A stretch of 64,000 nucleotides of DNA from Tubiluchus corallicola. Taxonomy: Eukaryota > Priapulida > Priapulimorpha > Priapulimorphida > Tubiluchidae. Position 1 is the first letter of the stretch. Each line of letters opens with the position of its first letter. The position numbers and the translations under genes were made by a program. Positions 22,693 through 64,000 of the stretch are shown piece by piece. Below the pieces are notes generated by a model, which saw only the letters and a list, made by a program, of their open reading frames with translations, ran no database searches and was not told where the DNA came from. The stretch lies in assembly GCA_030141605.1 (NCBI GenBank), contig JAQGDQ010000136.1, positions 310,001 through 374,000 on the forward strand. Reading direction: 5' to 3'.

Positions 22693-22825
22693 CTATTCTT
22701 CATCACCATGCCACTCTCGTGTCTCAGTGAACGTTTGAGGTCCATCTGGTCCTTCTATCGTGGTTGTGTGGGTCCTTGTCACATGTACATCATCTAACTG
22801 GGCACCCTCCCCATCTTGCATGTAC
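22693..22825 (-). CDS. ANK: Ankyrin last exon (C-terminus)
   Basis: The acceptor is TTTATAG (non-YAG-rich but usable). The exon supplies the third base of a split Lys codon, then [36 protein letters not shown], and ends HGDEE before TAG. The Thr-rich strand followed by GPDG is like the short beta-type motifs at ankyrin C-termini. Confidence 0.85.
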
Positions 22826-25800
22826 CTATAAATACATGAAACAAAGTATTACATGAAGTTCTAGTTGAAGTATTTTGCAGGGGGAAAGAATCCTAGTGCT
22901 ATTTTTCCTCTGGATAGTGCTTCGATTCTGTTCTAATTAAATTGCAAAAATCTAGAAGTGTAGGTAACATACTCTGCAAAAAGACAGAATTCTGGGTACT
23001 GCACAATGGAAAAACATAAAATTCTCAAACAAACCAGAAAAAAGTGGCAAATCAGGAAAATAACTAAGCTAAACTAAGTAAAGTATTCAGCCAAAGTTAA
23101 GGGCAACATTCAAGGAAAAAGTACAGAATTTGTTGTAACAAGCGAAATTAGGAATCTGGGCAATACAGTGTTCTTATAAATACAATAAAAATAACAAACA
23201 ATGTAGAAGAGAAACAATACAATGGAAAAACTACAGTGGATAAATACTAAGTGGGATAATGTTTGTACATTATCCTAAACAGTACACAAAAAAACTGCAA
23301 TTTTTGGAGCAATTCAGAATGAAACACCTTCACTTTCCTAAACTAGAAGAATCAAAAATAATAACACGATCGGTTTACATTGCTTACTCAATATAGTTTC
23401 TTTTAATAAATATGTTGGCCAGTGTGTGACATTATACTAACTAATTTTACGATCATTGTTATTTAATGTTATAGAGATTTCTTGAGTTTTTCTTGAACTA
23501 TCATCCACTATTACTATTACTACTATTACTGCACTTTTAAATAAATTATATGATAACTCTGGACAACGATTTACTTATTATCTGAGGTCAGAACTCAGTA
23601 GTTGGAGGCATTATTTCAAAGAGCTCGGGCTACATGTGCCTTATTATTATTGCCAATAGTGATGCAAAACAGCAATGATACTATCTACAACAAAAATAAT
23701 TATAACATACTTGTCGATCATTGCTTGCATTTCTGGGTCTAGGCTTCCAGAGTCATGCAGAGCTTCAGGTGGTGCATCGGGATCAATAAGTTTCTTTGAC
23801 TTCTTTATAATCACCCTGCAAGCAAAATAATATGAATTCCTCTTTTCATTCACCTCTTCCTCTGCATTACTATGCAGTATTGGTTTTTATAAGACATTAT
23901 AATAATTTAAAAATGAAAAAGCTTAATGAAGCAATACAGATGCTAAGTAATTTTGGCATTTAGCCTATTATAGGCTGAACAGATTTTTATGCACCAGTAA
24001 CAATTTCTCAACATTTGAAGTGCTTAAATATTTTATTATTACTTCGACTTCCTGATTGTCCCATCTTCCAAAACTTCTTCTTTTTCTATGACTTGAACAT
24101 CATCGTCTTCAGCTATTTGATCTGCAACAAAAATGACTGTAAATTCCTGATCCAACAATACACAATTTGTAGAACTTTCAGTTTTTAAAATAACCATAGC
24201 ACAGACCCTATAAATATGCCAAGTTAGATGTTGAGTTATACTGGACTCAAAGATGGTGACATTAGCGTGCGAAATTTTATGGGCATCTGATGGAAAGATG
24301 CAAACAAAATGACCAAAACCAAAAGTGAATTAGAAATCAAAACGACAAAAAGTCACAGTTCGACAAACATGGAGAACAAGGTAACAAGTAGAAACATTCT
24401 AACTTTTTAAAATGGGTAAAATTTGGTAAGTTTGTGATGAACCAGTGAAAAGACCCATCAAAATATGCAAAGGATAACATACAAGAATTTTAAAAAAAGA
24501 TAATACATCATTCACGATTATAAGCAACTAGGTATAAAGAAATTGGATCTCAAGTAATTACAGCTGAAAAGAAATAACAATGCATCAGCAAACAAATGAA
24601 TGTGAAACCGTCTCAAAGACTGTGTCTTGAATCAAAACCGAAATAGTCTGAGAAAATAAACAACTGCTTTCTGACAAATACAATGACAAATCCAAATAGA
24701 ATGTTCATTCAAACATAATCAATAAAATTAATAGAAGCCAATGAATGAACGAAAAAATCAATACAGAACAGACTACTCTAACCGAGAGTGTGTATGAACT
24801 TATGATCGTTGGAAACAAATGTGGAAATAACTACAAGTCATGCTGCAAGTGTGCGAAAATCATCGTCGTCGAAGCTGTTCATACCTTCATCACCATCGTC
24901 GTTCTCATCAATAACATCACCCTCAAAACCCTCGCCGAATTTCCTTAATTGAAATGATCCGGCTGCAGGCAAAAGAAGATATTTTACAAGACGAAACACA
25001 GGCAAACTACTACTGGCATCTACAGGCTCAAAAATCAACTAATAATGGATATCAATGGAGCATACACACATAAATTAACAAACTTACAAAAACAGGCTAT
25101 GCCCAAAAGCTAAAGCAAAAAGTAAAACCAAATCTTTAAATGGTAAATGCTTCTAAGAGAACTAATAAAATGGTATTCTAAAATGCTTTGAGAAATTAAA
25201 CATTGCTCGTTTTCTAGCATTCCTTGTTTGACATTTAATCTAAATTGTATCACTTTTTGATCTAATATTTGGGTTCCAAATTTGGGTATATTATTCAAGC
25301 ACTTGCTAGTACCTTTGCTTCATTCGTTACTGTGTCTGTACTAAGCACTTGTACACATTCAAAGATACTTTATTTTTTCAAGTACTTTATATAAAAATTG
25401 GTTTTTATACATCATGCACATATTACATAGGTTCCTTAAGTAGATCACATTAACATTATGTTTAACGTTTGACTCCGGTATAAATAACACAAAATGTAAA
25501 AAACTGTGCATAAATTAGACTATAAAATTATTGGTGTCTGTTAGCTTTCCCTTCAATTATTTTTTTACTCCACTAGACTCACTTCTTTTAAAACTTTTAA
25601 GCTTGCATTTTGCTTGCCTTGCAAATCATTTAGTTGGACCTGTCAGCAAGACCGTAACTGCGCTGACATAAAGTCAAAAAAAAATTTGTAACTTCTAAAA
25701 GTTTTTTGGAAATTAAACATTCTGTAACTTGGCATTAAACATACTGTGCTGGTTCAGAAAACATAGATGTTTTAAGAAAACTCGTGAATGAAATATTGTG

Positions 25801-28800
25801 ATGATTTTTTGTTTTTGTTTTTAAGGCTTTCTTATAATGTGAAATGCAAAACTTGACTATTAGAAAAGTACTCGATTATATTTTGCAATCAGGAATGCTT
25901 GTAGCTATTCTTTATTCTAGTACTTGCACTTTTATTTCATAAAAAGTATCTGAAGCGGATCTGGACTACATCGAAGTTAGAAATTCAAAGTCAGTCTCAT
26001 CTTATAATTTAACAATCACAATTGTTGTGCTCACCATTATCAAGCTTGCAAACATAAATTTAAAAGATGGCAATTGCAGAAATGAAGTGTAATTTTTTTA
26101 AAAATCTATGACAAGACAATTATATTAGTACCCCTGTCACGAAATCCTTCTTTGAACTGCCAATCATGCTCGGTAGGGTCGTACACTTTTCCGGAATCGT
26201 CGTCAATCGACACTGCTCTCGGCCTATGCTCGTCGTCTGTGGGAATGAGGTCACGTAAGAGAAAGATAGTGCTAGTTATTTCAGCTTCACAAGCAACTCA
26301 GGATAAATAATAAAATACATATTGGAGCATAGTTAAAGCGAATGATCACTGCTTCGTTCCCATAAAACAAGTGGAAGCAAAATATATAAGAAACAAATCG
26401 CAAAACAAGACACATGATAAAACAAATAGTAAAAAGAAGACATATGCTAACCCTCAGACAAAAAAATGGCTAAGCAAGAATTTGGTAGACAAGCAAATGG
26501 ACAATAATAACAAAGAAAAGTAACCATATGAAGAAAAGTCCTGTGCATATCAGAAGGTGAGCAAAGTAGTAACCCTGACTATTTACTGACAGTCTTTTGC
26601 CATTTTCTTCATTTAGATAACAATTCTGCTTAAGGAGAATGAAAACGAAGTGTGCAACTTGTTAGGGGAGTCCATCCATGCAAATCAAGTAAAATAAATG
26701 TATTTCACGCAAAAACCTGAGAGTCCATGTACACTTATCTACACGAGAAACACAGTACGGAAAAGGGCTGAATACCAGAACACCGATTCAAAGTTTGAGA
26801 ATAACAAAATAAATATAACTGCTATAAATATAAATATAACGCGAATAAAAAATGCGAGTTTTGAACATAAAAGAAAACAGAACTTCTCATAATCTCACAA
26901 TTGCAAACAAATGGAAATAGGGAAAAATGAAAGAATAGTGGACACAAAAAAGTTGTTATACTAAGTAAATTCGCCACTGAAAAAATGAAATTCTTCTTTG
27001 AAATTCACTATTAGAGCACTATGAGTTCGCAGCAATTACAAAAAAAATACTAGCAAAAAAGGACATTGTTTCCCAGCAGTTGCTTACTTTGTACAATGTG
27101 TTTTTTTTTGCAGGTCGATTTTAGGATACACGAATATGCCATTTTTATCCAGCATGCAAACCGTGCATCGATAACAAATTTGTTTGAACTTCTCTAGATT
27201 CCAGTTTTGAGTCCAGATTTCTCTGCTCATGTCCCAAAATTTGGGAGGATTTATGATAACATAATTAATTAGAATCGGATGATTTAAGACAAAATGGTTG
27301 GTACCTGGTTCAGTGACTATGTATTCAGGTGGAACATCTTGAGTGCCATCTGTTATAAAAAAACAGAAACATTATTAATTTTAAGGTGCAAGTAATTGCA
27401 TAAGCATGCATTACTGTTCGTACACATTTTTCTGTACAGAAAATTACGTTTACTATTACTTTTAGATATTTACTAGAAATTTCAATTCCAAGAGAACATT
27501 AAACAAACAGAAACATATTTCTTTTTTAGAAAAATAAATTACATAAAAATGCAGTTCAATAAATTTAATGAAGCTGATTTTTTATTTGAAATCCAAAATT
27601 TGACATGGGAATCTGGTATGCATAACACTAAACAGAACTACAATTCATATAAAAAATCAGCTACATCTGTGGGAGGTAGACAACAAACAATGAGGCACCC
27701 CCTTCTATGCGGAGGCACTCATTCTGCCTAGCCACTTCTGAAATTGCAATAAATATATACTGAACAGAGGGAGATCAACCTATGTTTTGTTTGTGTTCTA
27801 AACGTATTGTTTACTTGTTTGTGTACTTTTCTGCAATTTGTGTTTGTAAATTTCTGTTTTCTGCAGTGGAATCTGAAGGGGGTGCCTCCGACATGCATGT
27901 GCAAAAAGAAGGAAAAGAATAACAAAAAGACAGAACAAAAGACATTAGCAAAAGAACAGCGGAAAAACAGTTTTGGTGTTTGTTAGGGCTCATCTCTATA
28001 TTTGTCACCAAATGCTTTTTCTACTCCTATAGTAATCTTTAGGATAAAACACACATGCTGAAAATCAGATGAAATTAGTAACTAAAATTTATTATAACAT
28101 TGCAAAAAATTAATTAGTTAGCTGCTTTTGAAACACAAGAAAATCAAGCTGGAATCAACACACAAAAATACACAGAAAGGGGTAATAGTGGTGCAATGCG
28201 TTTCATAATCAACAGCGAACATTTTCAAACACGACCATGCACCCTCTGAAATGTCAGAGGCATATCTGATGCCATGTACCTTGACCAATCATCTGCCTTT
28301 CTTCTACCAGCATTTCAGTGGGCAAATCATCAGAGCAATGGGGATTGGAAGAGTCTGTTAGGAGAGTGGAAGACTTGCAAGCTATGTCAACAGAAGAAAA
28401 TCCTTCACTTTGAAGTGTGGCTTCGGGACCTTGCAGGTTAGCACCATTTAAAAAATTCTTATCCAATGAAGAATTCTCAGATGCAGCTATCATGCTTACT
28501 TCTGAAACTTCATCATTAGGCACTTCAACTAAGCTTACTAATGTGAATGACTCAACATTAGTTTCTGCTTCTTTAATAACATCACTCAGATCATCGCTTT
28601 CATTTCCACTAACTCTTTCTTCATCCTTCATTGACAGGGATCTTTCCATGCCTTCTGAGATAGTTGACATTGTTAATGGTTCTTCATCATCGATTTTGCA
28701 CTCCTTTTCAAGTCTCTCGAATTCAGCTAAAGACGACATTGATCCCCCACTAGATTCCCCTGATTCACCTTTTCCCAAATCGAAAGCATTTTGCTTTTTT

Positions 28801-31800
28801 GGCACATAGCCAGCTGAATGCGGAGGACTATGAATTTCAATTAATGCTGCTGAAATAACACTATCATCTTGAAAAATAACAGGTTCAAGTGGCCTAATTG
28901 TTGGATTATCAACAATATTTTGCGAGTTATGATCAAGACGTTCACACTCTTGGTTACCATCAAGTTCACTAGTTAAAGTAAAAGGGTTTTTAATAGCATC
29001 GTCACATTTATATTTACCATCCTTGTAATGTTTTGAACAGCTTTCATTCCCAATATCTACTGTTTGGTCACTACAAGAAGGCTCTTTCAATTTTGGTGTG
29101 GCATGACTTGTCACCCTGATATCAGGGATTTCCTTGTTCAAATGCTCTAATACTGATAAATTTTTTGTTTTATGCTCATCTTCCAAAGTATCTTCATTCG
29201 CTGCATCAGGAGAATGGAGGCGTTCCTCAAAAAAATCACGATATCCAACTTCCTCGGTTAAACCTTCTGTATCTACACAGCTCATGCAAGCCAAAGGACT
29301 GTTTTCCAGTTCTTGTACTCCACTATTACGATTATCATCACCATCATCGACACCATGATAGCTCTCCGACGGAGATGGCTTATGAGGTCTTTCCATTATG
29401 TCCGACAACTTGTCATCTTCTTCCTCAGACAAAGCAACTAACCTTTGAAGTTCAGAATCTGGTCTGTCATCTGATGACTGCGTTTTGTCAGTGAGCTGTG
29501 AAGAAGGCCGACTTCTTGTTGGTGAAGACGAGCCATCAGGAGCATCTAGTCTCAAACTACTGCTGTCAACAATCTGCCCAGATTCTGCCATTGCAGCACA
29601 GTCAGAGATGTACGAGTCCATTCTGGATTCTGAAATACCAGTATGTTTTGCACATGACTCAGCAATTTCCTCGTCATCTGGGCTACTAGATATCTTTGAA
29701 TCCCTGTCTGGCAAACTTGGTGACTGAGAGGTATTACCTTCAAGCTCTATTTGTTCATAATCACGCAAGTCTACTGACTCTTCAAAACTAACAGAACGTT
29801 GCTTTTCTGTGTCATGTCGATTATTTGACTCATACTTTTCAGCAACATCAAGTGCCTCACCTAACAAGTCGGATGCTCCATGGTGAAACCCATTTTTATG
29901 GATTAATAAGTCAGAACTTACTAATCCTTTTGACTGGTTTTGCAGATTAGATGATTGTGGTTGTTCATGCATCTGTGAAGGATACCTACCACTTAAACTC
30001 AAACTTTCATCTGGAGTGTAATCTACTTCAACTGGTCCATTTGAATTGGAATATTCATTGCTGTAAATTGTAGTGGAAATGTTAGGATATACTGAGGCTT
30101 CAGCTTCTTCATTAGGATTGGCAAGCTTGTCTTCAATGTTTGAAAAATTGCTTACTTCTAACTCAAGATATTGCTCAGTATGTTCTAGAACAGGAGAAAC
30201 TTCTGGAGCAATCACTTCACTGTTTAAATCACTCTTAAAAACTTTCTCAAAGCTACAGGAATCAGCCGAGTCCGTCATGTCACCTGCCTCTTGCTCTTTG
30301 TGTGAAAAACTGTAAGAAGATTCTCCACTTTCTTCAGGAATTTCAAACATATCAATGGAATGTTCTTGTATATCAACACGGGGATACTCTTGCGGTGGCA
30401 CAGTATCATCAGGCTCCACTTTCATCCAAGAATCAGCTGAAGAAGACATCACTAAAGATTCTTTCAAATCAGAGACATGGCTCAAACTGCTTGTAGTAAA
30501 AGATGACTGCATTTCAGCACTGTCAGAATGAGAAGTACTACTTCCACCTGGAGAGACTCCTACATCTGGCACTGTAGCTGTACCAACAGGCGATAAGCTG
30601 GTAGAATCTGCAATAACAGTACAACTTCCCGGAGACACTGTTTCTTCGGGATGTGAGCGTGGAGACAATCTCAGCTCGGGTAACTTGCTTCTCTCAGTTT
30701 GTGTAATAGGTGCTTTGCTGTCAGACTGTGTAGAAAAAATATCAGGTAATGAAACCTGTTGAGTTTGCACTGTTGGAGTATCTGGTACATCAGATTCTTC
30801 ATAGATGGAGTGATGAAGTGTTTCACTGTCTTGCTCATCTGATGGTACATAAGAATCAAAGGAAATTGTGCTCTGACGAGAACTATGTGCAGATTCTGAA
30901 GAGCTACCAGACTGGTGAGTTCGAGCAGTGTGGTAAGAAGCTGCAGTTAAGTGAGATGCTGCTGTTTCATAGGATTGTGTTGTGCGTCCAGAATCTGCAG
31001 TTTCGTATGACAATGACCTTGGAGAAGTAAAGCGTGAACAAGGGCCACTATCAGCATCATGATTATCAAATGAAGAAGTGTGATCAGTAAAATGTTTATG
31101 GTCTGAATAAGTGGAATTAGAGTGCTTATGATCAGAGCCAGATGAGTCACTTGATGTAGACCGGCGAAAATCTTGTTTAGTTACCCCAAGAGTATCAGAT
31201 CCAGTGGAATCTACAGATCTACGTGTGACACTATACGAATAGACTCCCATGCAATCCACGCTTAGGTCAGAATCACGGCGTTCAGCAATACCAATATCAA
31301 ATGTTACTTTATCAGGAAAGAAACTTGCTTCTTGAAATTGAACAGGCTGATCGTATGGTTCCACAATGGGTTCTTGTTCTACTTGAACATCTTCAGATAT
31401 TGTATCAGAAATTTCTGCACTATCATCAATAACAGTGCTATCTGTTGTAGAATCTTTCTCTATTTCAGTTTTATCAACAGCAACTTGTTCTTCAATAAAA
31501 TTTTTACATACTGATCTTAGGTTCTTTGTACTAAATTCAGGTTTTGCATAAGGCTGGTCTTTCTCAGCGTGTGTAGGACACTTGGCTTCAGCAGGTCTTT
31601 CTTCAGACACAGAATGTTCTTCTTTCCAAGAATATTCTTCCAATAATAATTCTTTGTCCTTTTCTAAAAATCCACAGGTTAGTTCAACCTCAGTTTCTTC
31701 ACTAACAATCCTTTCAATAGATTCTTGATGCACAGAGCTCAAACCTGATTTCATTTCTTCAACATGATCAAGAAAAGAAGAGCGCAACTCTTCATCCGAA

Positions 31801-34800
31801 ATGGAAGCATCAGAAACGTTTGGTGCTTCATTATTTTTGGAAGTCTTTTCAAGGATAGTATGTTCTCCAACTAGTTTCAAGTCATCACTTTTCTCTATAG
31901 AACCACTGTCATCTGAATCTTTGCTGGTGTTTCTTTTTCTTACAGTTCGAACGAGAGGTAGACTTTTAACATTACTGCTATCTTCTTGTTTTTCAATGAG
32001 GGACAAGTCAACTGAATGCACACTAGACAAATCATCAAATGGAGGGTATACCACAATCTCATCACGGCAAGGATGTGGCACCACCTCTTCCACATCTGGT
32101 GAAGCAGCACTTCTTTGAAAATCTTGAACAAGTTTTGTAGACTGACAAGGTTTTGACTTCAATAAAAAGCTTGTAAAAGCAGTGGCATCATCAAGCATAT
32201 CTGTTTCATTGGCTTCTCTTTCCTCTATAAGAGGACTTTGTGGAACCGCCTCCTCTTTGTAATCTTTGGTTATATTATCTTCCAAGTTTGAATCTATTTC
32301 ACTAGAACTTATAAGTAATAGTTTGTCTTCAGATGACACTGATTTCAGTTGGTCATGTTTGGTTCTTGGAAGAGAATACTTTTCTTGTTTGCCATTATCA
32401 CTGGACAATGATGATGAAGATGGTGGACTTTTTAACCTGCTTCGTCTCAGGTCTAAATCATGTAGGAAACTTTCATCAGCTTCTTTATTAACAACTAGGT
32501 TTTTCTGTAACGACATGTCGAATGTGGTTTCTTCGATGCAAGGGTCTCGTTGTTCCTCAATCCCAACCTCCCAAATCACATGGTCAATCTGTTGTTGTGT
32601 TCTTTCTGGAGGATAAGCACTTCCCATAACAGACAGGCCATGTTCACTATCCGAATCTTCAACATCAGCATCGGCTTCCTCTTCGCAAGTTGAAGCGTAA
32701 CACGATGGTTTACCAAAGATATTGCGATCGTCCATTCCATCATCAAGCGAAATGTCGGTACTGACGGTCCGCCTTCCTTCAGATTCTAAAGAGTCTTCCC
32801 TCTTTGGTTCCTTGAGAAACTCTTGAATATTAAGTTTCTTGCTGGTTGCATCTGATTGCTGTTTAATGTTATCATTATCATCGGTTTTAAGTTTGGTACC
32901 AGAATCTACAACTTTGAGCTTGCTGTCTAATTCACAGGGCTGGCATTCTTCTAATAAAGCACCAAACTTATGTGCAACTGCTTCAGTATGAGTTTCCAAA
33001 TTGGTAGTTCCATTCTGTTGGCTTCCTTCTAAGATGCCGGCAATAGACTTTGATTGACTTGACTCATGTTCTTTGAAGCTTTTATTAATTATTGCTGTGT
33101 TGTATGATCCACTACAAATATCGTTACCCGCCAGAGAATGTGAAAGACTATTATCAGCACCAAAGATGTCGTCTTCTCTACATACAACATCATCTTCAGC
33201 TGTTCTGGGAGTTGGAGGAAAGGACCATTGAAATGATTCATAGCTAGAACGCATAGTATCTGGAGTAGGTATGTAGGGAGCAATTTCTGAAGGTAGGGAG
33301 ACGACAATGGACTGTTTCTGGCTGTCAAGAATTTCTGTGCTTTTTACAACTTCTGTTTCTTTCCCGCCCTCTTTGCCAAGCATAACCATGTCTACAAACC
33401 ATAACTAGTTGTTAGTACTAGCTGTTAGTAACACTGCAAAGACGGCAAACTAGAGAATATTAGCAGAAAAGAGGAGAGAACAAAAATGTGTTTTAGTTTT
33501 TCACATGCAGAAACTTGTTACTTTGCATTTGCAATAAGCCAAGTTTGTATATGTTATCTTAAGAGCAAGTAAAAATTAATATGTAGGGTTTTGTAATTAA
33601 ACAAAATCTGCCTCCATTCGACTGACATGGTCTGTTGAAATGTAAGAATCGTATATTTTTGTAAATGTGTATTATTTTATAAGCATTGAGAAAGTTAAAA
33701 ATCCAAAAATCACAAACTAGAATGTCCCTAAATTTTTTAACAAAGACTCACTTAACATAAAAAAATAATATGAAGGCAACCTTATCCAGTGTATGATTTA
33801 ACTGTGCCTGTACTGAGCATCGTTTGCTGAAAATTCTGGTAGCTTATGCAAGTCAGAATAGAAAAATTATGAAAATAAACGCAACTAAGAAATGAATTTA
33901 TTTTTAGAAGTCGTTATAAAAACTTGGTTACTGTGCATGCTGCACACATCTGTATGTGCAGCATTTGTCATTTTGTCATTTTGCTCGTTATTTTGGCACG
34001 CAAAAGTTAAGCATGTAAATTCAAAATTTAGTTTCTTATGTGAGTGAATGCAGTTTTTGTATTTGCAATGGTTAAAATATCAATGTTAGTTATGAGTAAC
34101 AGTAAAATTAATGTATTTTCAAATCACTTAAATCTGCCTCAAGGTGTAGGTTCTGTGCTTCATGATATAATTTTTGAAACAACATTTATACAACAGCAGA
34201 AATAATCACAAACAACTTGCAATCATAAAAACAAAAAATAGCAAAATACCATGCTCTTATCTAGTAAAATGAAGAAAAAACATACACAAACAAAAATGCT
34301 TTTCAGTATTTTTTTCTGGGAATAATTATTAATTAACTAAACTACCTATTCACTTAAGGAAAAGTGTTATACAATGTTGAAATTTGCAACTGTATTACTC
34401 TAACGCTATTACTGTAGTTACAGTTAACAACAAGGCTCAGCAGACACTGCTAACTTTTGTTTTAAAAATCAGATTGGACTCAAATAAGGGAGGGGGGCGT
34501 GAATGGTTTTTAATTTACCATACAGAGCTAAATATTTTACAGACAAAAAACCATACCAAATTTAATTGTTTTCGATTAGAAAAGGTATAGGAATCTCTAG
34601 GGAGCATCAATTGTAAATTTGTTTTACAAAAGTCATGTGTTAGATGCGGCAGCAAAGTCAATGAATTTCTTCATAAACAATACTAGCTCTCTAAACATTT
34701 TCTCTCAAAATCTTTTTTATTTTTATCTTAAGCTTTCTCTTGTCTAACAAATTTAACTGAAAAAAGACACGATGCAGATTATTAATTTATCATACTAAAA

Positions 34801-43800: not shown

Positions 43801-46800
43801 AGAATTTGACTCAAATTTGGTAAAACTAGAAGAGCTGAAGACTGGACAAACCTATGCAATGAAATTATTTATACTATGAAAAAATGTAACTACAGAGAAC
43901 ACACTAAAGTGAAAAAAGTGAGATGAGTTGAAACTGAACCAGGTACTAAACTATACCGACGTAATAAGCTACCATAACCAGAATTTAAAAAAAGCACAAC
44001 CCCAAGATGAGAGGGTTTTGCATTTTACAACTACTTGGTAAGTTAACGTTTAGAAGCGATCTAGTTATAGTGCTTGGGACAATACTGTTTCTCCAGCTTA
44101 CCTTTTAAAGTGTCGTAGCAATCAATAAATTTTTCTTCGTCACTGGAACTAGAACTGCCACTCGATTTAAAAGATTGTTCGGGCACTGAAATACCTTTCT
44201 CTGCATTTTCACCTTTGTTCTCATTACTGCTACTGACACTTTTACTGGAAGATGCATTAGCGACATCAGGTGGAACACGAGTTGAGTGATAGGTGGGTAT
44301 CTTAGAAGAGCTTCTACAAGGCTGTGAAGATAATGAACGATTTTCTACACTGTAAATTTCTTGCATGGGATACTGAGACTGTAATGCACCTGTCTGTAGT
44401 ACAGGGATTTTAGAAGTAACTTTAGTATGATTAGAAACTGACTCTGGTGTTGTCGGACTGCCACAGGACAAATGCAGAGGTTTATATGTGGGAATTTTAG
44501 ATGGGCTAGTGAACTCAACTGTGTCAGGTGCCTTGTCATGTTCAGGTATTTGGAGAGATGTTGGTCTAGATACTTCACGTCCAGGAGACAAAGTACTAAA
44601 ACTAGCAAAAGTTCTAGGACGTGTTGGAGAATGCATTATAGGACTGGTATACGAAAGATTTCTGTCTGATAGGGTATTCGTTTTGGTATGTGGACTTAGT
44701 TGCTCCGAAGACCTATTTGGTGAAAGTGGCAGACTGGTCTGCACAGAAGTAACCACAGAAAGTTTTTCATGAGGTGGTACATTTGCACTTGCTTGCAATT
44801 GATGACTTGCAGTTGTTTCCTCTGTAACTGTTGTAACCAGCTGTGATATGAACACTTCCTTTGGTTCAGACGTGTTTTCTGACATGCTACTTAGAACACA
44901 GTGGTGATCAAGAACTTCTTTGGTTCTTTTAACTTCCTCCCGAACTAGCCGACCAAAGTGGTCGACATATTCTTTAGAACTGACCTCTACTGGTCCTGCA
45001 ACTAATAGAAGTGGATTTATCACTAAGTGTGAGCCAGATTTAAATGAAGGATGTGTTAATAAGAAACTACCCAGGAGGAAACTGACGGATTTTAACAGCA
45101 ACTATGTTAAGAGCAGTTACTCATACTAGACTTCAAAAAAATGGAAACCAGCTTCAAAATAAGATGTTACATAAACTGAACCAACCAATATTAGATGCGA
45201 AGTTTTTTAATAGCCTTGACGACAGAGCACCGACACCAAGTTCTTGAAATGTGATATGAATTCAAGCACAGTTTAATCCTAAAGCAAGCTTGAAAGAGTA
45301 AGTTAAAGAAGCTAGATAACATAACACTTTATTTTTCCAAAAACTCAACAACAGACTAAGGCAAGTAGTCCATCATGCGATAAGCTAACAGGTCGCATAT
45401 ACGATTCTGTAAGCAAAATCAACATAAATGGACAACCTAATTCCACCTGGGAAATTATTGTAATTCTTTGTCAGTAGTACGAGAAGAACTGTGTCAACAG
45501 CAGTAAAAAGGGAATCGAGAAATAAGTCCAGATTTCAACCACCACCAAGGTTTCATAATCAACAGTTTCATGAAATCAATAGGAAAGTTTTCCTTGTTGA
45601 CTCATGCAGCTAATCCTAGAATTAACAAATCCGTGCAAGACTTATTAATGAGCAAATATAAGCAGAGTTAGACAATAAAATTAGGTTTCTGTTTTTATAG
45701 GCTGCTAAAATTGATCAGCTATCATGCAAGTCATTGAAAAACTCAGCCTGATACTCAAACACTTTATTTTGCCAAACGCACAACAATACTTTTAATGTAT
45801 TGGATGCACATTATACTAAGCATCGAACTATTTGTGCCAAAACCCACCAGTCTGATTACTGTTGTATTAAAATTAGTTGCAAAGTTAGCATCACTATATA
45901 AAGCATAAATTAGAATCATAACCCATGCACAACCAAGGTAGATCTCCATACACATGAATTAATACCAAAACACAACGATCAACAAAATCCATCAAATATA
46001 TGAATGTCTGTTATTTGCAGCCTATGAAAGTCCATGTAAAAACATTGTCATGTAAATACAACTCAAACTAAGATTTCCACTTTATTGTGATGATCTATTG
46101 TTAACCGAAAAACAATGTTTGGTCCAGCTAAAATGGAATCATCTTCGTGGATATCCAATTACCATCTTAGTACCAAGAAGATATTATGTATAACCACCAT
46201 GGCTCTTGGTTAATCAAGTTAATTTGCTAATAACAGATCTGAGATGCATGTTAATTTATTCATTGTCAGAAAGCTAGGTTCAATTAGTGTTTGTTAGTAA
46301 CCAACATTATGCAGTTGGATTTATGCAAAACATGCAGTAGAACATTTAGTCACCTAGCCCATTTCTACAAAGTATCAATGGCAGATGTGGAAAGTATAAT
46401 TCACATTTAGTGAACTACTAATTATGAACTTAGTTTGCACAGACGCTTACTCTGTTAAGATATATATGGACAACAAATATTATAAATTTATCAATTTAAA
46501 CCATTTTGACACAATAATAAAAATTAAAGACACAAGGATTCTTATTACAAATTACAGACAACGGATCCTTATTAAAAATTACAGACATACGGATTCTTAC
46601 AAGAAAAAATGTATTAAGCCAGCAACAATTGCATCTGAATGTGCAATTAAAAATTAGGCAGGGGGTATTAAAGCAAACTGATAGACAAATTGATACACTT
46701 TGCAGAACAAAATAGCGCCAGCTCCTGTTAGTATCAGTTTAGTTAGAGGTCAGTATTTATGCTTAGGCAGTTTATTCAGTAACAGTTGCCATGGTTAACG

Positions 46801-49203
46801 CACTAAACTGCCTGAATGTGCAGAGACTTGTTAGAAATTATTGTGTACGTTGAAAGAGAAGTGCAGAGGGTGCGAAATGCAGAACTAAGTATTCCCAGGT
46901 TTCTCATTAGCTTCTGTGCACTAAGCAGAACAAGTTGTTAGGAAATCATCAAAAAGCTGATGTGAAGGGATGAAAAAATAAAAAAGCAGGACAAATTGCA
47001 AAAAAATATAGAAGCATGCAAGGCACCAGACTATACACTGTATATTGACTGAAAATCTTACATGTTTTTCGATTACTGTGATGGTGGTACATTACTGTTG
47101 ATCTGAATGCACGTATTCGTCTGTATGTGGCCTTTAACACGAGTGTACCCGACAAATGATGATGCTAATTTGCTAAAAATTCATTTACTCACCAACTGGT
47201 TCTGTAGGTGACCACTGGTCAGTTTCAGCCAAACGAGCAGTGACTTCATCCTCTGTCATGTCGTGATCACCTGCAACACCATTTTGAACCAATTACACAT
47301 TGCCACATATAGCAACAGTGATACAGGAATACAGGAGATGATACTGGTAACAAGTGTGTTGCACTTGAATAGGATGTCTCCTTTTTACAACTATATTGTT
47401 AACCCAATGTGAAGGCAAGAAGGTAAAATTGTTTTAGTTATTTTTATTGTTTCATCCTCCACTTTGTACACAAAAATAATTCAGAACCGAAAATTTTGGC
47501 AACAACAGCCCTAACTAGACCATAACCACAATTCACTTTAACAACCAATAAACAAAAAGTAGCGCATTAAAAGTAGTATGTTAAATGTTATCAGAAAATC
47601 AATTGCAATGAATAAAATGGAATTTATTGAGTAGCAAGACATAAACAAACATTTTACTACAAACATGAGCACAGATGATGAGATAGCTATGTAGGTAAAA
47701 AGCAAACTACCACCCACAAAACTGGAATATGCAAATGTTTTTGCAATTCAGTGTTACAGGCTAATCTGCAATTATATGTGACTGCACTCGATAAATGACA
47801 GTTCAATACCAAATACTAGCACTTATGCACTTTGAAATGCAATCACAAGCATTAGAACAATAATGCACATAAGAAATTCTTTAAAATGCAATCGATGAGT
47901 AACTAACTTGAAGTGTACAAATTAAAGCATGAAAAAAAATAATATATGTATATATATAATTGTAATCATTAGATCGATGATGCACATATTCGCAGACGAA
48001 TATTGATAGTGAATTTTAATATGCGCAGAGATGACAGCGAAAGGTACCTTATTCACAGAAACAGGAAATGCAGCTTGCTTTCTTTAACTCTGTACATGCG
48101 TTAGTTAACTTAACAAGAACATAACCGATTAACAAGAAATTGTCTTGCTGGCCTATAACACAGAACTCCCTGGCAGGGCTCTCTAGCAGGGCCTACTTAG
48201 GATAGATAACTGCCACAACTTAAGGCAGAGGTGTTTTAGCTGTATAGCTCCTTCTTCAATGAGAAAAAAAAACTGGATGTGACACACGAAATTGCTTAGA
48301 ACCATTTCTTCAGTGTTTTCTTGATCTCTTTTTTATTACCACAGAATTCTAATGCAGTCATAATGCACCATTTTTAGCAAGACTATATTTAATATACAAT
48401 AATAACAATAATAATAATAATAATCATACAAACATACACACACACACGCACATCTCAGAATTTGATGAGTAATCGTTCTTATAATTAAACATGCATTAAA
48501 CGAAACTGAGTTGTTACCACCAAGAAAATCCAACCAAAATTAAAGAATGGGTCCTGCACAAAATGGTTAAAAATGTAAGGGTCTATAAAAATTAGTAATT
48601 AATTACTAATGGAGGAAATTACTAATGCATGCAAAGTACACATTTAAAAATTACAAAAGAAAGAAAAGGTTATGTTAGAATTATGTACCACGAGAAGTCT
48701 AAAAACCAGAACCCAGAAGATGTAAAAAAATGCAGGTAAAAAAACGAAAGTCCCAGATGCCACCATGCAGCAGTTGCCATGGTTACCTGAGACATTTGTT
48801 TTCGTTGTCTTGGTAATGCGGGTCACGCGTGTCACAGAGCTACCATCTTCATTTGTGAACGTTTCTCGTTTCGTAGTAGTGTTCACATCCTCGAACGATT
48901 GCTGCCCACCTAATAGCGTTTTAGAATTTGGAAGGTTAACGAAAAGACTTAGTATAGCACGCCAGGGACACTAGCACACAAGTCAATATTAAAATCAGTA
49001 GGGATTTACAAATTTGGCATGCCGGAGTAACAAACAGAAAAGAAAACAATGTCACTGTTATACAACTATTGGTATGACAAACAAAAGCACTTCTAATTAG
49101 AAAATTAGGGACATCTTTGAGTAATCTGGACACCAAATGTGACAAAAAAAAAGAGTAGCAACCTAAAGATTTTTTCTAAATAAATGGCAACAATAATGTG
49201 GTG

Positions 49204-49300
<97 letters not shown>

Positions 49301-49337
49301 GTCTCTCTCTCTCTCGCTCGCTCTCTCTCTCTCTCTC

Positions 49338-49389
<52 letters not shown>

Positions 49390-52300
49390 CTCTCTCCCTC
49401 CCCCCTCCCACTCCCCAGCAGTGAACATGGTAGTGCTATCAATGCCTCAAATTTGATTCTGTTGAAGAATTGCATTTTGTAAATGCAGATTTTACATTTT
49501 ATTGGTAGGCCACTTTGAAATCAAATTCAGCGTACTTGTCCCGTTGGACATTTTTTAGCAAACGCATTCTGGAAGTTCCCCTGTCGTTGTTTTGTGCTAC
49601 AAACTCTGGTTGTAAATGTTACTTCTTAAAAAATATTCAACAATTGTCACATTCATTGTCCAACAAAGCCACATATGAAAAGCATAACGAAAACTGCCCT
49701 AATAAAAATAAACAAAAATTGGAAGAGGCCACAAACATATGTTTTCTACAAAAAAATTATGGTGCCCACCTTGATCCTCTTCACTTGGACTAGGGGGAGG
49801 AGTGGGTGGCTTTTCTTGGGATTCTCCAATACCTATAAATAAAAAATATTCCAATAAGAGCTGTGCTGATTCCATAAAAAGCTAACTGGATAACAAACTA
49901 TATGTACATGTATATGCACAATGTGCGGAATTTATTGTGTAAATTGAGTAAAATTTTGGAATAAGTTTGCATTTTCACAAAAATAGATGTTAAATATTAA
50001 CTGGGAATGTTCAACCATATTAACAGGATTTAACTATTGATAACGAGGCCTTATAAATTATAAATTGTGTGCAGTATTATCAACATGCAATTTTAAGTTA
50101 TACATCAGCTAGAATAATGCATGAAAATGCTAACAAATTAATTCAAAAAGGCAGAAGGCAGAGTAAAAGCCATTCTGTAATAGCAACCGTTCCATTGTGA
50201 CCTATATCACTCATATTATACCAAAAATGCCTCGAAGGCTAATCTTTGCCAAATATTATTACAGACAACACACTGCGCAAAGCCCAAAGCTTAGATAAAG
50301 CACAACGTCAATTGCAAAACTGAACATGGCAGAAAGGAAATCCTGCTGCTGTTGCAACACAATCCAATTAAGTAGCATCCAGAAAAAACCGAATAAGCAA
50401 GAAAGCGGTGAATAAAAAAGACAGCAGAACCTGACAAAACTGCCTAGAACTACGCTTCGATATGCAAAACGTTAAATACCAATTAAAAAAGACAGCAACA
50501 ACTGTATATAACCAACTATGTAGTCGGCAAATACCATTTGCAGATTGTGTAGTAGCTACTAGCATTTAAACAGTGATTTAAAGCTATGGCACCAAGTGGC
50601 AAACCTTTTTCTGATTGGTCAACCGGCGATGCTTCCGTTACAATATAACTATCTTCGATGCCCATAGATTCGGGCTGTGCAAGGGCGGGGTCAGTCGAGC
50701 GGGGTATAATCATCTCCTCTGTAGTGGCTTTGCGTTTGTCAGTAACTTTAACAGGAACAATGTCCTCCTCTTGAACCGCATCACCGGTTTCTATGGATAT
50801 GAATGTTAATTAGGTAAGAAAAATGTTAATGAAGCTAAACCGCCATTGCAGCCAACTCTGTTTAATTTGTATTTCTGCAACTGAAAGGATCACCGAGACT
50901 TAAGTGAAGTAGAGGTGATACACACAACTGCTCAATGAGACTTCAAGCAAATAAGACGATAGGCAATCCAAATTAGTTAGACACAAATGAAGCAAAGTTG
51001 ACTGCGCTGAGCATGACTGCTAAAATTAATAATATTAAAAAGCAGTTCTGTAAAGGATCATTAGTTTAGATTAGTTTTATTACTTAGTTCAGCAATCTTG
51101 GCTTTCAACTGAGGATATGATTTTAAACAACTTAAAGAAAGTACATCTACTATTATGCCATATGGACATTAAACAAGTAGCTTATTGATACAGAAAGACA
51201 TTTAAAAAGTTATACATCAAAGTACATCAACTATGAATTGAAAAATTGTTATATACAAAAATATGGAATACATATTAGATTTAGTGACCATTAGCAAGGG
51301 CAAGTGTAAACTATAACCTTACAAAAAGAAATCAATATTTATCTCGCTTGCATGGTCAATAATCAACAGATTGATTGGGAAAATGTCAATGTAAAATGTC
51401 TGCTATCGTTTTCAACATTTTCGAAAACACAATTTGGTTAATTAAAGAAATTAAAGGCAATTATATTGATGTCGTCATATAATGAAACATGTATAGATTA
51501 AGGTAACTAAAACACTCAAAATGGTTAGCACAGACGCCTTATAACATGTTCACTGTCAATACTGCTTAGAATTGCTTTTTGAGAGACAGCTTCTGCAGAC
51601 AGACTTGTGCATAACAGAAACAATGGCTGACAAAATTTAATTTTTGTCATCTGCAAAGGATCAAAAAAGCGGCTAGACCTAGTGGGTAACTTTTCACAGA
51701 ACACAGCATAGAACTTCACAATGTACAGTACAGTGTACAGATTGCTTAACAGTTACGGTAAAGCAAAAAAAGATATACCAGACACAAAAACATGCAATTT
51801 TGTCACTGAAAGCTTAAGATAGCCATATCAGCCTGTATAAAACATAAATCACAAACAAAAACAGATAACTCAAAAATATGGTACTGCAAAGTGCAAAGTT
51901 CATCTCTTCTATTGATACCAAAGGGTGTCTCAGAGAGAAACAATACAAACAAAAGACAGTGCATTGCACAGTAAATTATGTAGATATGCATGTTAAACAA
52001 TAATTTGTCAGAAAGTAGTACAATTTTATGGTGCACCAAAAAATGAAAGTAATAACTAACACACACTATACATGTTTTATCACCCATTTCAAAACATTGC
52101 CCGATTCCATTTTTTCAGACATTTGACAGCTGATAAGGAGATGAATCAGTGGGACTTTCAAACAATATTAAAAATGAAATCTTATGGCATTCAAACTCCA
52201 AAAATTTATATAATGTTAACCTCAATATCTAAAAGTATGTGCAAACATATAACTATTTACAATGCATTATGTAAAGAGAGACCGAGAAGAATTAAACATG

Positions 52301-55300
52301 ATAACTCTATCAGACAACAAAGAAAACGGAAGAAATAAACAAAGTGGTAAACAATAAACAAAGTGATAAACAATCATCTATTGTGCAAAATGTGATCAAA
52401 TTTCTCTTTCTACCTTCTGGCTGCACTAGATAATCGTGGTCTTTAGTGACCATCACACTGTCATCTTCCAGAATTGACCGATAAATTTCTTCTGGTGTTT
52501 TAGGGGATGAGACTTTCTTCTTGGGTCGAGCTACGTGCTCAGGAATAATTTGTTCCTCAGAGATGGGACGACCACCTGAACACAAACATGGCGTTCAGCT
52601 TGTACCGTGAACAACTGAATATCAGTTAACTTTGAAGATAGTACGAATAAATTATAAACATTAATAATATCAATTCTGTTACTGAATACACAAGAAAAGT
52701 ACATGTACATCAGGAAAAGGCATCAGGCGCTCAAATTAAAATTCTAGCTTACACATTATATACATAGCTATGTAATAATATATGCAATAAGTGTTCCTAG
52801 GAAACAACATGCACTATACCGAGGGTTTTCTATGTTTACAAATAAATATAAACAAGCAAAACAATGTGAACTATACACAATATAAACCATGAACTAAACT
52901 GTGCAGCCAAGTGCAACACTGAAAGTACAATGGTATCATTAATGAGCGGCAAAAGAAACATATTGCATTGATATACCATGTGATCATGCACATCCCATAT
53001 ATATCATTGCTATACATTTCTTTGCTTTGATTTCATCATACACATTAATTTACATTTAAGGATACATGTAACTTAAATACTAAAATTTATACAGAAATAA
53101 TATAATCACAACAAACACAGATCCAAACTGTAGTACAGAAATGTCTTGCATAAAAACTGCAATCAGAATAATGCATGGATTAAGTGCTGATTTCATTCTC
53201 TGACCAATAAATGTTTTTGGTAAAAACTGCTATATGCAACAAGAAATCACTAATAATAATATATGCAGTGATTGCAGTCTTGAGCTGGATCTGTGGGTAA
53301 CAATTACAAATTTTAAACAAAGATCATGTAACACACTCAGGTCACATTTACAGTGTAATACCAATGGACACAACAAGACAACATGTTGATTATCAATGAG
53401 TAGTCGGTAGTGGGTTATAAATCAGGTCGCAACATTACTGGTATTATATATTATCATTATTACCATTAACTTTAGCAGTGCAAAAACAAGACTGTACACA
53501 TTCGTAAATATGAAAGAAGTAACCAGGTAGCCAAATGATGACAATTTGTAATTCATTCTTGTGCTTCGTTTTCAAATTTAGTTTCTCATGAATCTATAAA
53601 TTATTGCCGATACTCTACATATAACTGTAATCAACAGGAATGCCGACACCACTGGAGAAATTTCACCAAATGTCTAAGCAACATGTAACACATAATTTGA
53701 TGCAAAATAACACAATAGCTTCCACGAAGTGCTTACCGAAATCAAAACGTTTTACAGGTGCATAATAATAATGGTCAAAAACCAAAAATGTCAAGCAGTA
53801 GTACAAACTTGCAAAATAATGGAAAAGTCATGCCAATGACAACAACGAAGGTGGCAAATAGCATTGGGCTATTACGTATATAATTCCTCCAGAACGTATG
53901 CAATTCCAATATGTGCACACTAATTTGTTGATGGTGTTTCAAGGTAGCATCACTTTCGTGTTGGAAATACACGTAAAAGCCCAAAGCGATGAATCACATG
54001 AGTATTTGTACCTTCGTTACTCGATTGGCTACGATTTCCGGAAGCAGACTCGCTTGAAGGAGTGCTGTTGGGAGCAAAGTGTTCAGTTTGGCGAATTGAA
54101 GCTTCTTTGATAACTTCGGAAAGACTGACATCTGCATCCTTCATGATGATATTAGCTATGAGAACATCTTGAGGTGGTTTAGTTAGTTCTGCATGCTCCT
54201 CAAACAGCTTTATTTTTTCGGAAACAGACAAGTTCATTTCATCTGCGTCATCACCACGAGCACTTCCAGAAGCACTGTGTGACAATTCTGACACATCTTG
54301 GACTGCTTCATCTGTACTTGTCAATAGAAACTCTTCTATCTTTTGCACCACTCTTTGATTTGGTTCTCCATTTGTAACAACTTCAATTCCTTCAATGTCA
54401 CCATACTCATGTTTTGTAGGTAGCCCAGGTGAAACCATAACAGGAACGGTGCTAGACATCACCACACCTAGAGATTGTTCAGGGTCCGACACTAAAGGTA
54501 AATTATGTTCAGGATCTTTACATATCACAATATTTTGCTCTTGTTCATAAGGAATGTCATTGGATGATTTAGGTTCACTTGGACTTGATGTTTCATTTGA
54601 GCTCGAACGAGAAGGTGGCGGCGCTTTCGTGACAGGATATGATTTTGCAGTACCTGGCCCTTGGTTTATAATGTGACTTTCCTTATCTGAATTAGAGTGA
54701 GCCGCCTCTTTCGTTTCCGAGTCTGAATCTTCTTCACCTCCAGAGACAACGCCATATCTTTCAATTTCGCCTTCGCTTGATACAGAATCCAGCTCCATTT
54801 TGTCTTCGGCTTGTTTTAATGATTTGTTGAATTGCAATTCGCTTAATGTTTTACCCGCATCATCCGTGCTAGCTGTTGTAAATTAGTTGTAAAGAAACAA
54901 TTATTATACCTAAAGAATTGCGACAAAAAAGACTTAAATATATTTAAATGCTACAGTCGCATAGTGAAAAGGTTTTACAAGTGTCACGAACACTGGTGTA
55001 GACTTTAACAGTAATAACAAATTATGCCACAAGATCATGCAGGTCTTGAGTTTTCAAACCATCAGGTTACAAGTAACAAACAGATGCCCTAAGACACACA
55101 AGCACATAGGTCAAAACCTTAGACTTAAAATGCCTCATACGTAAAACTTACAAGTTACAACAGAAAAGACAATAATGCTGTTCCAACATCAATGTTAGTA
55201 GAAAGTGATGATCTGGTCTTCTTCTAGTAGACATTAAATATCACACGCTGTTAATAAGGTTCTTCTAAGAACTACAGTTCATCAGTTAATAAGGCAGTCC

Positions 55301-58300
55301 ACACTCAATACCTTGTGCTGGTGCACTCGCAGCATTTGGATCAAAATCATTTCTTTCTATGTCACAGAGTTGTCGCAACAATTCTTCACGCTCAACATCG
55401 GACAAGGGTTTTGAAGAAGGTCGCTGCCGATCTACATGCATAGGTACAATTTCATCTTCCTCGGCATATTCGGGCTGTGCCATTGGGGCAATACGCTCCT
55501 GAGGGACAACCTCTGCTTCCTGTACAGGTACTTGTTGCTGGCCCGAGAGTCTTTCTTCCACGGTTTGCAGAATATTTTCTGTCCAGGGTTGAGTTTCATC
55601 CGCAATAGGAGTTGCTAGTAGCACAACAGCATATGTTATTGACTTTCTACAAGATCAGGCATGTTCATAGATATCCACTTAGTTTGTTAGTAGCATCATG
55701 CAGATTTACATGGCATTGTTTAGTAGGAATCACTGAACGCATCAAACTCATAGCCAACTAGACTGCATCCAAACTTCTTGACTTTACATTGTCATTCTTG
55801 AATGACGTAAAAAGGTGCTTGCTCATGAGAAGAGTCAACAAGCTCAATGTCTGTCTTGAATTAGTCATAGTTTAACTGTTACTCTACGTGACAAGCATTT
55901 GCTGTTTAGCACTGCACAAATGATTCAGTCCAATAAAAGAAAACGATGAATGCTATTACCAGTGCTACAGATAAGACATGTATTTGCCTAATTAGTAATT
56001 ATGTATCAATTTTGAACAAAAAACTGTGGATATAAAAATATATATCCACATAATTATTACTATGGGCGCATAAAATTACTTAAGATGAAAATTAAATGTA
56101 AATTTACAAAAAAGTTAGTCAATAATTTCAATTATATCCCAAATCTGAAACGTAATGACTGAGTAGCCACCACAATAATGACAATTCGTCTTTAAGCAAA
56201 ATCTTAATAACACTGGGTGAACTACAATGATTATATTTCCATGCTATATAATTTATTTTTGTGTTTAGTAGTACATTTATAAGATTGGGCAATGCTTTAT
56301 TTTGGTGCAATCATTGACTCGGGATTTGGCAAATAGTTAAATACTGTTAAAAAAATTAGTAATCATGAAATTTCACCATAAACTAAAAATCTAGAGGGTG
56401 ACAGACGAAAAAACTGAAAATGAAAAGTTTCTCTAGATTTTATTTTGGGCATTGGATTAAAATTTTATCCGGAGCACTGGGTATGACATATACAAAAGTA
56501 TTAGACATGTTAACTGATAACCTACGACAAGTACTTTGCTTTAAAAACAGGGTTTATAAGAAGTGCCCATAAACAAAAATGCTTCTAACATGCATCAATT
56601 AGGTAGACTGTAGAAAATATTACTTGAATTATACAAGAACCCAACATCTACTTTTCAATCAATCATGGAAAATGAGCTTGATTCCAATTAGAGATACCAC
56701 CCCTAAATCCCTTCAGCAAAGATGGGATAATTGATTTTCATGTGTCGAGGAATATGTAATAAAAGAAGTGCACACACAATAATTTTGGAGAAAATTTCAA
56801 CAAGAATTCGAGCCCTAAAGAAAAGACAGCTTCCGAGTTTACACTAGCATATCACTAACATCAAACGATGGCCATGCAGCTGACTGGCAAAAACTGCTTA
56901 CATCTATTATTAATTGGGATATATAGTTTGTGCAGCCCAAGCATCAATATCATGCTATGAAAACTGTAGATTAAAATACTGTATATACAAAGTTAACATG
57001 CATGATGCTGAAAACTAAAATATACCATTATAAACGTCACCATATTAGAACACAAGTAATCAGGTTAATTCAATAATCTATATTTCATGTCACGACTAAA
57101 TGTTAACTTAGCATTGCAATATTAAGTACTGAATCATTAAAGACATCAGAATACTTTAAACTGATTTACAATGTGTGCATTACAAAAGCACTCACATGAA
57201 TATAAATTGCAAAATTAACAATTAGAACTTATAGCTATAAAAACAGTCACTAATATATTGTAATTTGTTTAATGAGTTTTGCTAGTCCTATGCAATTAAG
57301 CAACTGAAAATGCAGCAATTCCTTGTATGCATGACAATAATTTTTCTTCAAAAGTTAGTTGTCATGATTTTCCAGATTAAAAACAAATCATTTTAGGAGG
57401 TTACACACAAGGAAAGGAAAGATAACCACTCACCTGTTCCTGAATCTCTCTCGATGACTGAGCCCTTTTCACTTTCAGATGCTTCACTCTCACCTTCCTG
57501 TAAGTAGTGCAGATGTAAATTTAGCTTTTTTGTTTTTGTCATGATCTTTAAATATGTAATAACTACAATCACAAAAAGTTAAAAGCAATAAAGTTGGATC
57601 AAAATGGGCAATTAAAGAAAAACAGGTGAAAAAGGAATGGTGAATAATTATGCATAGTAAAAATAGTTCCACCACTTTGAAATTGAGATAAATAATGTTT
57701 GCCATTTATAGTGGAAGGCAGGCTATCAAAAAAGCCTTATTGTTTTCAAAAATATAAGATAAAATGTATAATACATCCACAGGGCAGCATAATAATGTGA
57801 TAATCAGTTTTTTCAGTCGTACACAGTTATTGTACACGTACAAGCACACATATACACATCAAGATGTACATTATTAGCCATATCAACTTTTGACAAGCAG
57901 ATGCAGTAAAAAGATACACAGGCAATAATCGGAAAAGAAAATGTTGATCTGAAAACTACAACATACAATGGAATTATCACACATGACAGCAAGAGAAAAG
58001 ACGCGAATTATGTAATGAATTAACAGATAGTGTGTATAATGATAACGAATGTACAACTGTTGATGTATAACAACTGATAATAGTGTCAAAAAAACTTTCT
58101 GGAAATATGCAAAAATGTCCAAAATTGAAAAATGCTTAACCTAAAAAACTACAGGCAGTGCAATAAAACTGCTGCAAAGCAAAAAACCTAAAAAATGATA
58201 ACATTAAAAAAAACAAAATGAAAATGAATCGCTAGTGGCAGAAAAACCGAAATGCAAATTTTTTGTTTAAATTCTAACAGCTACATAATTTAATGAAAAA

Positions 58301-63784: not shown

Positions 63785-64000
63785 CTATAAGCAAAAGCAC
63801 AAACAATATACTGCAGAGATTTTTAAAATAAGTTGATCCCAAATAATTTCTATAAAAATTAAATTTCATTTCCACAAATTACAATGCTGAATGCAAATTG
63901 AAAAGCTTTTTTGAAATGCACTAAAATAGATATCTACAGTTGATTATGGGTGAATCAGCTACAAATTATCAATAGTGTACAAATATTCAGTGCATTTTCA

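Follow-up and report, generated by a model that had tools for sequence, protein, structure and literature searches.

How one gene can make both short and giant forms of an ankyrin is a question of splicing, and it is raised here by the 3′ part of a giant-type ankyrin gene, a kind of gene already known, predicted in the priapulid Tubiluchus corallicola. The gene lies on the minus strand of the window analyzed, a stretch of 64,000 nucleotides (nt) of contig JAQGDQ010000136.1 (assembly GCA_030141605.1, positions 310,001 to 374,000); all ankyrin exons below are on that strand, and coordinates are those of the whole window. The protein joined from the upstream exons matches Pfam UPA_2 (E=1.3e-53) and then Death (E=9.3e-14), in ankyrin order, and its top sequence match in the PDB is Ankyrin-2 (4d8o, E=1.2e-66). 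The 24 ankyrin repeats and the ZU5 domains of the family would be expected further upstream, past base 64000. The original prediction held that 14 exons starting and ending in phase 1 form the whole ankyrin tail, and that any subset of them can be skipped in frame. We consider it likely that the tail is laid out as a gate exon, this 14-exon phase-1 block, an internal last exon and an exit to a distal C-terminus, that the giant exons are neuronal, and that the choice of 3′ end sets the tail. A gene model of this kind turns the notion that any exon is skippable into testable predictions.

The block is recovered by a gene model that is blind to phase. In this semi-Markov dynamic-programming model, codon usage, splice-site scores and a cost per exon are combined, and every intron is free in phase. 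Codon usage in the main model was trained on the 6321-, 5112-, 894- and 861-nt exons (4 of the 14), with the ten smaller exons outside the training, and the splice weight matrices came from general consensus frequencies rather than from training on this species. All 14 lengths given in the original prediction were placed on the minus strand, in order, each with an AG acceptor and a GT donor and open in phase 1. Every length is a multiple of three, the 14 exons together make up 14,457 nt, and all start and end in phase 1:

55312–55614, minus strand: 303-nt exon, phase 1 to 1 (gene model)
54012–54872, minus strand: 861-nt exon, phase 1 to 1; a phase-0 donor at 53998 is only 1.4 bits worse
52414–52575, minus strand: 162-nt exon, phase 1 to 1; linked alternative start at 52555
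50605–50790, minus strand: 186-nt exon, phase 1 to 1 (gene model)
49770–49832, minus strand: 63-nt exon, phase 1 to 1 (gene model)
48787–48909, minus strand: 123-nt exon, phase 1 to 1; an alternative start at 48901 (phase 0 to 1) is 3.6 bits worse
47193–47270, minus strand: first 78-nt exon, phase 1 to 1 (gene model)
44102–44995, minus strand: 894-nt exon, phase 1 to 1 (gene model)
37089–43409, minus strand: giant exon 1, 6321 nt, phase 1 to 1, 2106 whole residues (gene model)
34862–34987, minus strand: 126-nt exon, phase 1 to 1 (gene model)
28280–33391, minus strand: giant exon 2, 5112 nt, phase 1 to 1, 1703 whole residues (gene model)
27305–27349, minus strand: 45-nt exon, phase 1 to 1; its total of 18.1 bits is the smallest in the block (0.15 expected by chance)
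26132–26236, minus strand: 105-nt exon, phase 1 to 1; a 165-nt phase 1 to 1 version from 26296 scores equally
24885–24962, minus strand: second 78-nt exon, phase 1 to 1; final exon of the frame-neutral block

Phase 1 stands out from the other two frames of these exons, since 25 of their 28 readings hold a stop. The three stop-free readings, all in frame 0 (63-, 126- and 105-nt exons), carry 4.3, 6.5 and 3.3 bits of coding signal, compared to 24.6, 31.4 and 24.3 bits for the same exons in phase 1. Exon length is a poor guide by itself: a search for segments of the exact length, bounded by AG and by GT or GC and open in phase 1, gave at least 44 matches by chance for 303 nt and at least 82 for 78 nt, and splice scores and coding content were therefore added. 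For the 303-, 861-, 186-, 45- and first 78-nt exons, the site chosen was not the best-scoring among the matches in the 42-kb stretch scanned; placement of these exons was decided by order, coding content and the gene model. As an observation apart, the peptide of the 126-nt exon contains 27 Ser among 41 residues, mostly in a single run.

At exon costs of −9, −10, −12 and −14, the model returned 14/14 block exons with identical ends; at −6, many small exons were added, the 861- and 123-nt exons were shifted (2 of the 14), and we discarded this setting because small exons filling the introns amount to over-prediction. Three alternative training sets were each run at three exon costs. Training on the 6321-nt exon alone kept 13/14 exons (the 105-nt exon was altered), training on the 5112-nt exon alone kept 14/14, and training on the sequences of the 894-nt, 861-nt and last exons kept 13 or 14, depending on the cost. 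A penalty of 1 bit on each phase-1 intron changed none of the predicted exons. Under penalties of 2 and 3 bits, the 861/162-nt pair was re-read with a phase-0 intron; at 5 bits, the 123-nt exon shifted as well; and at 8 bits, the 45-nt exon was also lost, with 10 of the 14 exons surviving.

What does the uniform phase allow? All 15 donors from the gate exon through the second 78-nt exon end in a G that is codon position 1. A phase-1 intron preceded by G gives a GNN junction codon, which is never a stop; this is a general consequence rather than a peculiarity of the locus. Accordingly, the 130 ordered joins among the gate exon, the block exons, the internal last exon and the 79-nt exon that follows the block create no stop, and encode only Ala, Gly, Glu, Val or Asp at the junction. 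The claim that any subset can be skipped thus holds for the 14 block exons, including both giants, but does not extend to the exons that flank them, which are not frame-neutral. Because the block is flanked by a 0-to-1 and a 1-to-2 exon, neither the first tail exon nor the 79-nt exon is freely skippable, and a further 2-to-2 C-terminal exon is neutral against its own neighbors only. The block is predicted to be safe to recombine by splicing, and its combinatorial use would be permitted by frame.

Entry into the block depends on how the conserved core ends. The core exons are:

63556–63774, minus strand: UPA-domain exon, donor phase 0; 5′ end unsettled, the start being set in the open frame (gene model, Pfam)
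62691–62844, minus strand: UPA exon, phase 0 to 1 (gene model, Pfam)
61403–61573, minus strand: UPA/linker exon, phase 1 to 1 (gene model)
60767–60973, minus strand: death-domain exon 1, phase 1 to 1 (gene model, Pfam Death)
59749–59978, minus strand: death-domain exon 2, phase 1 to 0, weak acceptor (−3.4) (gene model)

Near the end of death-domain exon 2 there are seven in-frame GTs, the best two of which are in phase 0 (6.5 and 3.5), while the sole GT in phase 1 scores 1.0 and is third best. With its end in phase 0 at 59749, this exon has no direct entry into a phase-1 exon. Between the death domain and the block, the gene model predicts two further exons, a converter that we refer to as the gate and a tentative microexon:

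57434–57497, minus strand: 64-nt frame-converting gate exon, phase 0 to 1
58974–58994, minus strand: tentative 21-nt microexon between death domain and gate, phase 0 to 0, frame-neutral (dynamic programming)

The gate exon has an acceptor of 3.7 bits, a donor of 13.2 bits and a coding score of 23.3 bits (40.2 bits in total), and 20 shuffles of the intron sequence yielded zero candidates of at least 22 bits. The microexon candidate is not significant: the introns give 1 match at its score, and 20 shuffles gave 0.4 on average.

The gate exon is absent from the original prediction, as are four exons between the giants and beyond the block, and the 14 exons are therefore not the whole tail:

35740–36524, minus strand: alternative last exon located between the two giants, 260 residues with a phase-1 acceptor and a stop of its own at 35742–35740
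24043–24121, minus strand: 79-nt C-terminal exon, phase 1 to 2, weak donor (2.1)
23711–23815, minus strand: 105-nt C-terminal exon, phase 2 to 2, total 30.9 bits
22693–22825, minus strand: terminal coding exon with stop, the best-scoring end in the gene model

The alternative last exon carries 133 bits of coding signal up to its stop. The gene model reads it as an internal exon of 651 or 662 nt, a form that we rejected because the coding signal continues to the stop and the model writes a single transcript only. An AATAAA at 35588, 152 nt past this stop, gives little support, since 0.5 such signals would be expected by chance over the stretch that was searched. At the distal end, blocking the 105-nt C-terminal exon costs the model 18.9 bits, and the end at 22825–22693 beats the next by 8.5, 10.5 and 12.5 bits at exon costs of −10, −12 and −14, respectively. 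For the 79-nt exon, the model favors a start at 24286 by 1.5 bits with phases unchanged; we rejected this start because the extra 165 nt give only ∼0.6 bits of coding signal. If the 79-nt exon is read through, a stop follows at 24041–24039 with an adjoining AATAAA at 24037, and this exon could itself be a last exon, making a shorter end there possible. Altogether, the predicted layout of the tail is a gate, a neutral block of 14 exons and an exit, plus one internal last exon.

Several observations weigh against this layout or against the distinctness of the block. There is no AATAAA or ATTAAA within 970 nt past the predicted distal stop, the first match lying at 21718. Within the block, the weakest intron (54012 to 52575) can be read almost as well in phase 0, a reading that is 1.4 bits worse and alters the 861- and 162-nt exons jointly. 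At exon costs from −9 to −14, the gene model also places two exons in the interval that separates the 63-nt from the 123-nt exon, 49605–49536 (phase 1 to 2) and 49435–49134 (phase 2 to 1), which, if real, would break the phase-1 run; we judged them spurious, as the second overlies a TC microsatellite. The UPA/death-domain core itself has phase 1 in three of its five introns and includes two 1-to-1 exons, making the block less distinct than it appears. Splice scores do not differ significantly between block and UPA/death-domain exons (Mann–Whitney p = 0.25 for 14 vs 5 donors and 0.88 for 14 vs 4 acceptors), and weak splice sites were accordingly dropped as a sign of regulation. Finally, Ser, Glu, Thr, Asp, Lys and Pro together make up 46.9% and 52.4% of the two giants, compared to the >55% published for giant ankyrin exons (PMC5135030). 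The microsatellite is a TC/GA repeat at 49206–49400 with 97 dinucleotide copies (Tandem Repeats Finder, TRF); it lies within a tail intron and misleads the gene model.

How unusual is a run of 15 consecutive phase-1 introns? At the 5:3:2 ratio of intron phases cited in PMC7259759, its probability is 0.3^15 = 1.4e-8; however, this null is too harsh for the present sequence. An AA-ending codon (GAA, CAA or AAA) followed by a GNN codon makes AAG or CAG, and thus a cut after codon position 1. We took the phase-1 share from AG-type sites in the 6321-, 5112-, 861- and 894-nt exons. Of the [AC]AG sites, 388/687 (0.565) cut in phase 1, giving a run probability of 1.9e-4; for [AC]AG[AG], the share is 254/356 (0.713) and the probability, at this most favorable share, still 0.713^15 = 6.3e-3; and for [AC]AGG, 31/70 (0.443) gives 4.9e-6. 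Composition accounts for a good part of the uniformity, but not comfortably for all of it. More generally, where an acidic, disordered tail shows uniform phase, the composition of that tail should serve as a yardstick alongside general phase frequencies. Phase-1 richness in neuronal genes has a precedent in the 1-to-1 exons that are enriched in 153 human–mouse brain genes with very long phase-1 introns (PMC7259759).

These shares lend weight to an explanation in which intron gain at AG proto-splice sites, within a region that is acidic and disordered, led mostly to phase 1 and the exons are perhaps constitutive. We regard this as a serious contender, if one with somewhat less than an even chance. 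[AC]AG precedes the intron at 13 of the 15 block junctions, and the phase-1 introns of the core also fit, as does the finding that block splice sites are not significantly weaker than those of the core; on the other hand, the run remains improbable even at the most favorable share, the two introns after the block are in phase 2, and giant exons of other ankyrins are known as optional (PMC12713133). An explanation from alternative 3′ ends has a comparable standing, plausible though short of even: transcripts would end either at the internal last exon or at the distal C-terminus with one giant, the small exons would be constitutive, and their symmetry would be incidental. The internal last exon, with its coding signal and its own stop, speaks for this explanation, but the AATAAA beyond that stop is at chance level, and the uniform phase of the eight exons upstream of giant exon 1 is by itself left unaccounted for. 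The layout that we favor overlaps with both of these explanations, and the degrees of confidence expressed here are not shares of a single whole. In our reading, the uniform phase probably reflects tolerance to skipping together with a composition under which most AG splice-like sites fall in phase 1.

Two further explanations concern the origin and the reality of the run. Tandem duplication of one ancestral 1-to-1 exon would produce equal phases, and the peptides of the 303- and 162-nt exons indeed align at z=4.3, the top of 120 pairs (16 peptides, with the giants and the 126-nt exon excluded); but the next pairs reach z≤3.4 at most, and in a comparison confined to the long exons, no match at E<0.05 links the giants to one another or to the 861-, 894- and 785-nt exons. 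The motif [IV][IV]P occurs five times in the 214 residues of the 303-, 162- and 186-nt exons, three times in the giants (3809 residues) and never in the 14 remaining peptides, and was picked after looking. Support for duplication as the origin of the run is weak, and we think it improbable. That some boundaries are wrong, and that the uniform phase stems in part from choosing phase-1 sites, we hold to be unlikely, if less so: the penalties of 2, 5 and 8 bits successively alter the 861/162-nt pair, the 123-nt exon and the 45-nt exon, and the splice matrices follow general consensus frequencies rather than training on this species, but the 1-bit penalty is without effect, 10 of the 14 exons withstand 8 bits, and the model is blind to phase. 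Regarding the motif itself, [IV][IV]P in the 303-, 162- and 186-nt exons mostly follows acidic residues; it may serve as a docking motif or may be a remnant of exon duplication.

For the layout with gate, block, internal last exon and exit, we suggest the following scenario. After the death domain, the gate exon would convert phase 0 to phase 1. Any block exon could then be joined, via a GNN codon, to any later one, to the internal last exon or to the 79-nt exon. Neurons would include one or both giants, while other cells would skip them, and, by analogy with Ank2-L and Ank2-XL of Drosophila, which giant tail is made would depend on whether the internal last exon or the distal C-terminus is chosen. 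The internal last exon offers a possible simpler route to different giant isoforms, for which Drosophila Ank2 provides a precedent. A more far-reaching version, in which gate, last exon and exit frame a combinatorial array and neurons choose among many subsets of the 14 exons (with the distal end, as many as 2^14 = 16,384 tails in frame), appears unlikely to us; if it were true, tail length and docking motifs would be tuned cell by cell.

The two predicted exons of more than 3 kb (6321 and 5112 nt) downstream of the death-domain exons place this gene among known giant ankyrins. Jegla et al. (2016) describe protostome and echinoderm ankyrins whose long exons follow the death domain; 8 of 23 loci have two long exons in tandem, and the pairs of Drosophila Ank2, Tribolium and Aplysia are reported to be non-homologous (PMC5135030). 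The locus described here resembles Drosophila Ank2, with its L and XL exons, and the Tribolium orthologue in having two non-homologous long exons after the death domain: the best blastp match between the two giants has E=0.39. Ser and Glu together account for 22.6% and 26.7% of the giants, against a published ∼25% (PMC5135030). By contrast to the Drosophila XL exon, which is reported to contain 93 repeats of 76 residues (PMC5135030), neither giant holds a repeat array, as judged by blastp of each against itself and by TRF beyond one 1.9-copy row. Drosophila Ank2 is described as giving rise to isoforms -S, -M and -L (PMC10186683), and Ank2-L and Ank2-XL as each having a unique C-terminal tail domain (PMC6703079); the counterpart here would be the predicted alternative last exon. 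In Drosophila, giant ankyrins are reported to pattern the proximal axon and to stabilize synapses (PMC5135030, PMC6703079).

Vertebrate ANK2 and ANK3 also have a giant exon, which is optional and included in neurons according to PMC12713133; however, their long exon is described as lying upstream of the death domain (PMC5135030), whereas both giants here lie downstream, as does the long exon of Caenorhabditis elegans unc-44 (PMC5135030). A run of symmetric exons is likewise found in the I-band region of titin, an unrelated gene in which exon usage has been measured, the present exons being predicted from sequence. Nearly all skipped titin exons are reported to be symmetric, with 3 asymmetric ones among 175 exons with a percent-spliced-in value (PSI) <0.99 (PMC12580133), providing a precedent for symmetry and skipping going together. 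In the open-licence literature, no paper was found that combines "giant ankyrin" with "intron phase," none among the titles listed deals with the phases of ankyrin tail exons, and the word "phase" is absent from the main text of PMC5135030. In a Pfam scan of single frames (those of 303, 861, 894, 6321, 785 and 5112 nt and one death-domain frame, leaving out the nine smaller block exons), none scored above the curated cut-off, and the joined C-terminus and the last exon likewise matched no family above it. An Rfam search at gathering thresholds gave no match.

Outside the ankyrin gene, the plus strand contains a coding-like open stretch at 2529–2753, whose 37.9 bits are the plus-strand maximum in 1–22690; it has no Pfam match up to E=1 and is possibly an exon of a neighboring gene. 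On the plus strand, every 2-kb step between 2 and 22 kb shows negative AT skew; at higher positions the skew is mostly positive, with exceptions at 28–34, 38–42 and 54–56 kb, which contain long exons. This change at about 22000 is consistent with an end of the ankyrin gene close to 22 kb and with a gene on the plus strand at lower positions. A tandem repeat with a 41-bp unit and ∼17 copies, also seen as a 279-bp period, occupies 1316–2013.

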